DNA from: Myxococcus hansupus
GTDB taxonomy: Bacteria; Myxococcota; Myxococcia; Myxococcales; Myxococcaceae
Assembly (NCBI RefSeq): GCF_000280925.3
Contig: NZ_CP012109.1
Span: 6,902,501-6,966,500, forward strand
Reading direction: 5' to 3'
DNA length: 64,000 bases
Under the pieces are notes generated by a model, which worked only from the letters and a program-made list of their open reading frames with translations, was not told the origin of the DNA and made no database searches. Shown in pieces: positions 2,090 to 3,326 of this stretch (positions are counted from its first letter, which is position 1; every line of letters starts with the position of its first letter). Both the position numbers and the translations under genes were made by a program.

Positions 2090-2145
2090 TTCACATCGAG
2101 AAGCTCGTCGGCTAGAGTTCACTTCTCATGGCCGACGAGCTTCTC
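2090..2145 (+). promoter_or_regulatory. DUF2378 gene promoter with a 15-bp perfect inverted repeat over the start codon
   Basis: A sigma-70-like pair, TTCACA (2090-2095) and TAGAGT (2113-2118), is spaced by exactly 17 bp. A perfect 15-bp inverted repeat has its left arm at 2098-2112 (GAGAAGCTCGTCGGC), filling that spacer, and its right arm at 2131-2145 (GCCGACGAGCTTCTC), which is codons 2-6 of the gene. The 18-nt centre holds the -10 box and the ATG (2128-2130). If transcription starts about 7 nt past the -10 box, the mRNA is almost leaderless and the palindrome acts as a DNA operator. If it starts upstream, the arms would fold as an RNA hairpin with the ATG in the loop. Confidence 0.5.
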
Positions 2146-2751
2146 ATTTTCGAGCAGACCATCGAAGCCCTGTACCTGCGGGCACTGCACGGGCGCCTGA
2201 CGCCCGAGTGCAAGGCGCGCCTGCGCCATGCGGGGCTCGACGTGGACCAGAAGCTCCGGCCCGCCTACGCGTTCGATGCGTGGATGACGTTCCTCCGCAT
2301 CACCTCGGAAGAGCTCTACCCGCAGCTCCCCCTCGAGCAGGCAACCGGGAAGCTGGGCGAGGCCTACATCGAGGGCTTCCGTGAGACGATGCTGGGCCGC
2401 GCCGTGCTGTCGCTGCTGCGCGTGCTGGGCCCGCGGCGCACGCTGATGCGGGCCACCCAGAACTTCCGCGCTGGCAACAACTACACCGAGTCCAAGCTGC
2501 GCGAAATCGGCCCCACCCAGTTCGAGCTCTGGATGAACGAGGTGGGCCCCTACCCCGCCTTCACCGCGGGCATCATCCACGCGGGGCTGCGGGTGGCCGG
2601 CGCCCAGGACATCCTCATCGAGATGTCCGGGTACGACGGCCACGCTTGCGTCTACCGAATCAACTGGAACGAAGCCTCGGTCTCCTCGGGCGTCGCGGGC
2701 AGCGGAGACTCCAAGGCCGCCAGCAGGTCGGGATCCATCAGCTCCCTGTAG
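2128..2751 (+). CDS. DUF2378 family protein (TIGR02265, Myxococcus-restricted paralogous family)
   Basis: 207 residues. The N-terminal part (LLIFEQTIEALYLRAL, LRPAYAFDAWMTFLRITSEELYP) and the centre (GFRETMLGRAVLSLLRVLGPRR, GNNYTESKLREIGP, FTAGIIHAGLRVAG) match the DUF2378 family, a lineage-specific expansion in fruiting myxobacteria with no established biochemical role. The last ~33 residues, a Ser/Gly-rich tail, are read through the 3' end of the convergent membrane-protein gene (100 bp overlap), so the tail is probably dispensable. There is no recognisable ribosome-binding site, which fits the near-leaderless promoter described for this gene. Confidence 0.85.
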   Translation: MADELLIFEQTIEALYLRALHGRLTPECKARLRHAGLDVDQKLRPAYAFDAWMTFLRITSEELYPQLPLEQATGKLGEAYIEGFRETMLGRAVLSLLRVLGPRRTLMRATQNFRAGNNYTESKLREIGPTQFELWMNEVGPYPAFTAGIIHAGLRVAGAQDILIEMSGYDGHACVYRINWNEASVSSGVAGSGDSKAASRSGSISSL

Positions 2752-3326
2752 ATGAACTCAGCCAGCAGGCCGGTCACCATCCAGATGGGCAGGATGTAGA
2801 GCGACGTCATCTGCCAGAGGATGGCGCCTTCATCCGCGTAGAACCAGATGCGGTATCCGGTGAGCCGCTCCAGCACCACGCCAGTGAAGCCCTCGAAGAG
2901 CAGGATGACCACGCCGTACACCGCCGCGCGCAAGCCGACGTGCTGGTACAGCATCCGGCGATACAGCGGCTCGATGAAGCAGAAGCACGCCACGCCGTAG
3001 ATGAGGAACATCCACAGCGAACACTGCCCGTAGGCGGTGACGATGGGGGTATCCCAGATGGCGTTGAGCCCCAGCCGCTCATCCACGCGCCATTGGAAGC
3101 GGAACAGCGCCTCCAGCAGCGGCACGTGCTGGGCAATCCGCACCAGGTTGTAGAAGAAGATTTCGGAGCTGAGCCCCACCATGCCGTAGAGGCAGAAGCG
3201 GAACACTCCGAATGCCAGCTTCATCCGCTGGCCGCGCTTGATGTCCGCTCTGCGAATGCGGACCTGCCGGCGCTGATAGCCATCCCCCGATTCCACTGCG
3301 ACCTTTGCCCCCATCGTGTCCCCCAA
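2652..3326 (-). CDS. Polytopic membrane protein of unknown function
   Basis: 224 residues with about five hydrophobic segments, for example FGVFRFCLYGMVGLSSEIFF, LWMFLIYGVACFCFIEPLY, AAVYGVVILLFEGFTGVVL and SLYILPIWMVTGLLAEFIY. The E-x2-TG...ERLTGYRIWFY stretch is reminiscent of the putative ABC_trans_CmpB-type (PF06541-like) membrane family, but I cannot assign it firmly. The N-terminus is basic (RRQVRIRRADIKRGQR), so it is probably inside. Its 3' end overlaps the convergent DUF2378 gene by 100 bp. Function unknown. Confidence 0.75.
   Translation of the reverse strand: MGDTMGAKVAVESGDGYQRRQVRIRRADIKRGQRMKLAFGVFRFCLYGMVGLSSEIFFYNLVRIAQHVPLLEALFRFQWRVDERLGLNAIWDTPIVTAYGQCSLWMFLIYGVACFCFIEPLYRRMLYQHVGLRAAVYGVVILLFEGFTGVVLERLTGYRIWFYADEGAILWQMTSLYILPIWMVTGLLAEFIYRELMDPDLLAALESPLPATPEETEASFQLIR

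Follow-up and report, generated by a model that had tools for sequence, protein, structure and literature searches.

Given that a perfect 15-bp palindrome overlaps the promoter and start codon of a DUF2378 gene in Myxococcus hansupus, we questioned whether it acts in DNA, as the binding site of a repressor, or in RNA. The window, here and below, is the whole stretch of 64,000 nucleotides that was analysed. An initial annotation of its sequence had described a TTCACA-17 bp-TAGAGT promoter and an ATG bracketed by the two arms, the left one filling the spacer between -35 and -10 and the right one forming codons 2-6, with a transcript predicted to be nearly leaderless; it favored a DNA-binding repressor over an RNA switch. 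We find the layout exactly as it was described, and our results point to RNA. The features on which the argument draws are as follows.

1554-2048, + strand: TolR/ExbD-type gene (PF02472, 5.6e-23; TolR/ExbD profiles), the last of a tolQ-tolR-tolR cluster
2066-2082, + strand: conserved, genus-specific CCTACGCTCCGGGTNGG box, located after the tolR stop and ahead of the -35
2090-2095, + strand: -35-like hexamer TTCACA, from a consensus scan and orthologues
2096-2112, + strand: promoter spacer, 17 bp
2098-2112, + strand: 5' (left) hairpin arm, within the -35/-10 spacer
2113-2118, + strand: -10 hexamer TAGAGT; in the predicted RNA, 2113-2117 also pair with 2125-2127 and 2129-2130
2125-2127, + strand: CTC ahead of the start codon, predicted inner stem with GAG at 2115-2117
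2128-2130, + strand: ATG start codon, near-leaderless and without a Shine-Dalgarno core; in the predicted read-through RNA its A is bulged and its U and G are paired
2128-2751, + strand: DUF2378/TIGR02265 gene, 207 aa (PF09536, 1.5e-59; TIGR02265, 9.7e-65)
2131-2145, + strand: 3' (right) hairpin arm, identical with DUF2378 codons 2-6
2146-2151, + strand: T-rich tail ATTTTC, identical with codons 7-8, candidate U-tract
2652-3326, - strand: convergent gene without a Pfam or NCBIfam match

The dyad, the promoter and the upstream tol genes

The two arms are perfectly complementary over 15 bp each, with 18 nt between them, and form the sole inverted repeat of at least 12 bp with a loop of at most 30 in the window. 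In a consensus scan of 1900-2400, TTCACA-17-TAGAGT was likewise the sole sigma-70-like site (shuffles gave a mean of 0.0). Since twelve first-order Markov sequences yielded a mean of 1.0 repeats of at least 12 bp and 0.08 of at least 15 bp, the length of the dyad alone is only mildly improbable, and the case for it rests on comparison with relatives.

The stop codon of the TolR/ExbD-type gene lies 79 nt ahead of the DUF2378 ATG, and the corresponding gap measures 44-86 nt in 43 of 44 orthologous loci (the scripted value of 577 for L025 probably reflects a wrong ExbD frame). The left arm starts 49 nt past the tolR stop in the window and roughly 15-25 nt past it in other genera. Within this gap, the first 14 bases of the CCTACGCTCCGGGTNGG box recur at 0-1 mismatch in all 27 loci of the window's genus; inspection by eye did not find the box in other genera, and at 0-1 mismatch it occupies a single site in the genome. 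It is possibly the site of an activator. A second perfect inverted repeat, of 10 bp (CCCACCCGGA/TCCGGGTGGG), occupies 2055-2082 between tolR and the -35, and its left half is not kept in most relatives, as seen by eye.

Conservation and pairing among orthologues

Searching 96 genomes of the family at E <= 1e-70 returned 44 orthologues in six genera, 27 of them in the window's genus; L030 (G057; 49% identity, with an in-frame stop) is excluded from every orthologue count. The -10 reads TA[GC]A[GT]T in all 44, with TTCAC or TTCCC 17 bp from it in 41 and about 18 bp from it in L055, L060 and L061. The left arm adjoins the -10, and the leader from the -10 to the ATG measures 9 nt in 30 loci, 11 in eight, 10 in four, 12 in one and 6 in one, so that the spacing of the arms varies by several bases; in L029, one base is inserted inside an arm. 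None of the 44 carries GGAG, AGGA or GAGG ahead of the ATG. These distances suggest that DUF2378 transcription starts at the AUG or within a few bases of it and, since the position of the -10 is kept throughout, that the predicted start lies downstream of the left arm.

Pairs 2-12 of the dyad are Watson-Crick or G·U in 44/44 orthologues, the inserted L029 base being omitted by hand; the check that the initial annotation had proposed, for the dyad in orthologous upstream regions, thus finds the core pairs kept across six genera. Pair 12 is A-T in 27 orthologues and G-C in 17, and it tracks codon 5, which reads CTT as opposed to CTC or CCC always in step with the left arm (44/44) and is never CTG, even though the 27 genus members use CTG more than any other leucine codon in this gene. 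At pair 11, 28 orthologues have A-T, 15 have G·T and one (L061) has G-C, an exchange accompanied by a Leu-to-Pro change. Over pairs 1-15 we counted 25 G·T cells versus 2 A·C cells; breaks are commoner at the outer pairs 13-15, and three orthologues have a broken pair 1.

For covariation we aligned 34 of the 44 orthologues (alignment A1, 32 distinct). Pairing is kept in 94.0% of cells versus 90.3% after shuffling and 22-49% when the arms are slid against each other. The covariation score of 0.173 versus 0.115 was reached by 0/500 shuffles, with much of the covariation stemming from a single division that sets the window's genus apart from the other sequences; changes on both sides occur at 2 pairs only, a number that 383/500 shuffles reach as well. 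An exact-pattern scan of genome contigs found 14 stretches with the dyad, of which 12 hold the whole 207-aa gene and two (L072 and L073) have a gene frame that runs off the stretch. Thirteen of these records are titled Myxococcus, Pyxidicoccus, Archangium or Hyalangium, M. xanthus AM003 being among them, and one Comamonas. Collectively, these sequence comparisons argue that the dyad is real and old. The record titled Comamonas sp. KCTC 72670 (L075, BNCN01000002.1) holds a myxobacterial locus with a 98% identical protein, and its title looks wrong. Downstream of the dyad, codons 10-13 (CAG ACC ATC GAA; 2155-2166) are invariant in 27/27 genus members, including an A-ending Glu codon, which possibly marks a further constraint at the level of nucleic acid.

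Predicted RNA structure of the element

The element in the window is predicted to fold at -36.9 kcal/mol compared with -12.6 for shuffles (z -9.7), bearing in mind that windows of at least equal stability are not rare in this GC-rich DNA (114/21,314). The predicted hairpin comprises 20 pairs, one bulge and an apical loop of 7 nt, as the stem reaches beyond the dyad, where the CTC that precedes the ATG is paired with GAG of the -10, and TG of the ATG with TA of the -10. Elsewhere the inner stem is built from other letters, namely GTGG/CCAC, GCG/CGC or GGGA/TCCC. When 31 distinct orthologous sequences were compared, the native leader gave a better fold than its shuffles did on average in 28 and was equalled by at most 5% of shuffles in 11, with no folding gain from the leader in L029, L062 and L063; the sense RNA was more stable than the antisense RNA in 30/31, by a mean of 4.5 kcal/mol. 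The only Rfam match was Ms_AS-4 (E 0.47, below the gathering score), located elsewhere and on the other strand.

Right after the dyad, the third codon position is unusually rich in T. Among I, V and F codons, T stands there in 42/88 cases at codons 7-8 versus 8/103 at codons 9-20 and 28/727 at codons 21-160, and because the 44 genes are related we also give the count for 11 representatives, which is 9/22 versus 3/29 and 2/179. As exceptions, codon 64 is TTT in 12/27 genes, and 2/6 starts of paralogues also hold one T-ending codon at this place. A U-tract under selection would have this appearance; alternatively, T-rich codons near the start could serve translation initiation. A consensus terminator scan of 1900-2400 called none, the tail is short, with runs of no more than 5 T among the 16 of 44 gene-bearing loci listed, and the stem is predicted to be interrupted at the AUG.

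The operator reading

A repressor, be it DUF2378 itself or another protein, would account for a perfect dyad that lies over a promoter and is kept in orthologues. Such an operator should keep its spacing and its letters constant; we found neither constant, and the operator reading is therefore not supported. The spacing of the half-sites is inconstant, with an insertion inside one arm of L029; the letters of the inner stem differ by lineage while pairing is mostly kept; G·T cells far exceed A·C cells; and the sense strand is favored in folding. When up to 3 mismatches are allowed, the 20 bases of arm and -10 together occur once in the 9.49 Mb genome. Sites for the 15-base arm show no enrichment relative to a reversed control (118/129 versus 158/131 sites at up to 2 mismatches), and the arm alone has 13 further one-mismatch sites among those listed. 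A repressor with a single target would pass this search for shared sites.

The suggestion of a family-wide operator found no backing at the 17 other TIGR02265 loci of this genome, which show no comparable dyad at mechanically chosen starts, the longest arms there being 9 bp. Neither did a covariance model of the element (R1) match at the starts of these paralogues; one weak match (E 0.021) lies on the opposite strand, about 400 nt away from the L038 gene. Searched across its own genome, R1 recovered the element on either strand plus one weak match at E 0.06.

For autoregulation, the fold of the protein is informative. The AlphaFold2 model of DUF2378 (pLDDT 74.6, built from 13 close sequences) matches the H-NOX structures 3tf0_A and 1u4h_A over 168 residues (Z 14.3, rmsd 3.1 A, 13% identity), with a best Foldseek E of 1.9e-6 and TRAPP subunits next at Z about 9; no DNA-binding fold stands among the structure matches listed, and by sequence no solved-structure relative was found below E 0.3. 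The folds matched are those of sensors and adaptors. The H-NOX-like model of DUF2378 offers a structural clue to a myxobacterial family without an assigned function, which counts 18 loci in this genome. The hallmark of H-NOX proteins is a conserved proximal histidine ligand. Across 33 family sequences, none of the columns that reach 90% conservation is a histidine, and haem binding by DUF2378 is therefore not supported. The convergent gene and the 3' end of DUF2378 share 100 bp (2652-2751).

The hairpin in loci that lack the DUF2378 gene

We sampled nine loci without the gene, from 5/16 g31 genomes, 2/2 g30 genomes, G061 and G099. All nine have a stable predicted hairpin 3' of tolR (z -3.3 to -6.6), and the -10 motif is absent in 9/9. 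R1, built from gene-bearing loci only, matches six of them, at E 1e-9 (L086), 8e-8 (L082), 1.5e-6 (L079), 4e-5 (L084), 5e-5 (L085) and 0.005 (L080). It does not match L078, L081 and L083, so the g31 hairpins could be replacements. For the 16 of 44 gene-bearing loci that were listed, the best tail scores lie between -3.0 and -4.6, and for the nine gene-less loci between -3.5 and -5.2, over search ranges that are similar and not identical. Longer T-runs occur in gene-less loci, for example in L085 and g31.

The remains at these loci differ. G061 (L086) lacks the body of DUF2378 and retains residues 176-206, at 81% identity, where the gene would overlap the convergent gene; the first codons still spell EAGELLVF, the -10 and the ATG are gone, and the hairpin folds at -43.8 kcal/mol. 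In G099 (L085) the right arm still encodes VAGELLVF and is followed by TTGTTTTTTG. These codon relics make the loss of the gene plain in L085 and L086. Both g30 loci (L079 and L082) keep the arms and still have an ATG, with CG in place of the TA of the -10, and five g31 genomes have a 15-pair stem with a T-run after tolR.

Two further loci, L087 and L099, which belong to two genera at a greater distance, carry an orthologue (54-55% identical, with the same convergent neighbour) inside the operon, 40 and 4 nt after tolR respectively. Neither gives an R1 match; the structure after tolR is weaker in L099 (z -2.7) and absent in L087 (z 0.4), and both orthologues read GTC TTC at the position of codons 7-8. 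At 16 more distant loci (L088, L089, L098 and L100-L112) we found no gene by pattern and no R1 match below E 0.8, the orthology of TolR being unsure there; in all, R1 was run on 27 loci, with the further TolR-like matches L090-L097 left out. In L106, a 12-bp repeat follows the TolR-like gene. We count the 16 distant loci neither for nor against the proposed reading.

On a midpoint-rooted tree from 984 columns of the tol genes, covering 27 of the 44 gene-bearing loci and 11 others (the 16 distant loci lie outside it), the gene-less loci fall in three separate places, and three changes are forced by well supported branches. The simplest history would run from a gene in the operon to a hairpin with its own promoter, and from there to repeated loss of the gene with the hairpin kept. 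Because the tree is midpoint-rooted and the operon-type loci adjoin the long-branched L029, we infer the order of events, including the direction of change in g30 and g31 and the first step of this history. An element that outlasts the gene most likely serves tol.

Proposed mechanism and its alternatives

The initial annotation had set RNA aside on the ground that DUF2378's own transcript lacks the left arm; RNA derived from tolQRR would hold both. We propose that transcripts running through tolQ, tolR and tolR as one unit fold, directly after tolR, into a long hairpin of about 20 bp and -37 kcal/mol, which would serve as the 3' end or terminator of the tol operon. The sigma-70-type promoter of DUF2378 would lie within this hairpin, with the left arm as its spacer and the -10 and leader as the inner stem, and the right arm would double as codons 2-6. 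RNA from the internal promoter would begin at the AUG or just ahead of it, without the left arm, and would stay unfolded and be translated leaderless; tol-derived RNA would end at the hairpin or, on escape, have its AUG locked. A single element would in this way close the tol unit, open the next one and separate DUF2378 expression from that of tol. We consider it probable that the palindrome is such a tolQRR 3'-end or terminator hairpin, with the leaderless promoter, start and first codons of DUF2378 inside it and read-through either ended or deprived of its AUG. A bolder version would make the 20-bp hairpin a composite switch, at once tolQRR terminator, leaderless promoter and AUG lock. A polymerase coming out of tol has to pass over the DUF2378 promoter before the hairpin is complete, so tol activity would actively exclude expression of DUF2378, here taken as an H-NOX-like sensor, and the element would switch transcription states instead of forming a passive boundary. 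An ordinary operon would have been its starting point, with reduction to a plain terminator on three or more occasions. Taken as a whole, we hold this version to be possible and well short of probable.

The T enrichment at codons 7-8, set against a weak tail and the absence of a scan call, leads us to rank the combination of terminator and AUG lock first, an AUG lock second and a stabiliser third. With an AUG lock only, the hairpin would hide the AUG in read-through tol mRNA, in the style of T4 gene e, and would end no transcript. The pairing of the AUG in the predicted read-through RNA, the lack of the left arm expected of internal-promoter transcripts and a layout like that of T4 gene e (PMC3014915) all agree with such a lock; the T-rich tail and the persistence of the hairpin in three lineages without the gene argue against it, and we regard it as unlikely. 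Somewhat less likely still is a hairpin that stabilises the 3' end of tol mRNA or stops an RNase, with the end itself made by processing or by Rho. A strong stem with a weak tail would suit this role, as would the hairpin kept where the gene is missing, but the longer T-runs of gene-less hairpins (L085 and the g31 loci) and the T enrichment in codons 7-8 speak for termination.

A DNA operator we judge very improbable, since the initial preference for a repressor, whether autoregulatory or acting across the family, runs against the variable spacing, the inner stem, the bias towards the sense strand, the single genome site, a protein model that matches H-NOX and TRAPP folds, and hairpins that outlive both the gene and the -10 in three lineages. 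Coincidence, in the sense of a chance complementarity between the conserved spacer and the conserved N-terminus, has in its favor that each arm has its own reason to be conserved and that 12-bp repeats arise about once per window by chance. It leaves unexplained why codon 5 keeps step with the left arm in 44/44 orthologues and is never CTG, and why a hairpin is found where the gene is missing, and we give it hardly any credence.

Relation to known systems

If the proposed terminator-plus-lock hairpin is correct, the locus would illustrate a route by which a gene leaves an operon without moving, in that a boundary hairpin grows and a promoter, a start codon and first codons are made from it. 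One bacterial family presents three states, with the gene in the operon, a hairpin with a leaderless gene, and a hairpin alone. The locus also cautions against reading every dyad that covers a promoter as an operator where an operon ends just upstream. Among the matches listed, openly licensed PMC text contained neither a description of this arrangement nor a transcription-start map of Myxococcus.

The fold that the DUF2378 model shares with the H-NOX/sGC heme domain extends over the aligned 168 residues; the two differ in the low sequence identity and in the lack of a histidine among the highly conserved DUF2378 columns. When insertion sequences of the IS10/IS50 type are protected against transcription from outside, read-through RNA folds and hides the start region, and RNA from the element's own promoter does not. 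The folding of read-through RNA over the start region is predicted here as well; unlike those cases, the setting is an operon boundary, and no mobile element was seen at it.

With intrinsic terminators the element shares a GC-rich stem right after the last gene of an operon, a short predicted apical loop and a T-rich tail, and gene-less loci show ordinary-looking examples at the matching place. It differs in that hairpin and tail are built from the spacer, -10, leader, ATG and codons 2-8 of the next gene, and in that its tail is weak and escaped the terminator scan. Zymomonas terminators average a stem of about 11 bp, a 4-nt loop and -17 kcal/mol (PMC7566282), an average that the stem and energy of the present element exceed.

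The closest likeness is to T4 genes e, soc, 49 and I-TevI, for which PMC3014915 describes hairpins that sequester the start codon together with an internal late promoter. In gene e, the start is hidden in the long transcripts made early, and shorter, open transcripts without the 5' arm come from a promoter at that arm (PMC3014915). Both there and, by prediction, here, a long upstream transcript pairs the start region and an internal promoter drops the 5' arm. The present gene differs from the T4 kind in being bacterial and chromosomal, near-leaderless and without a Shine-Dalgarno sequence, and its hairpin apparently serves the upstream operon too, being present where the downstream gene is missing.
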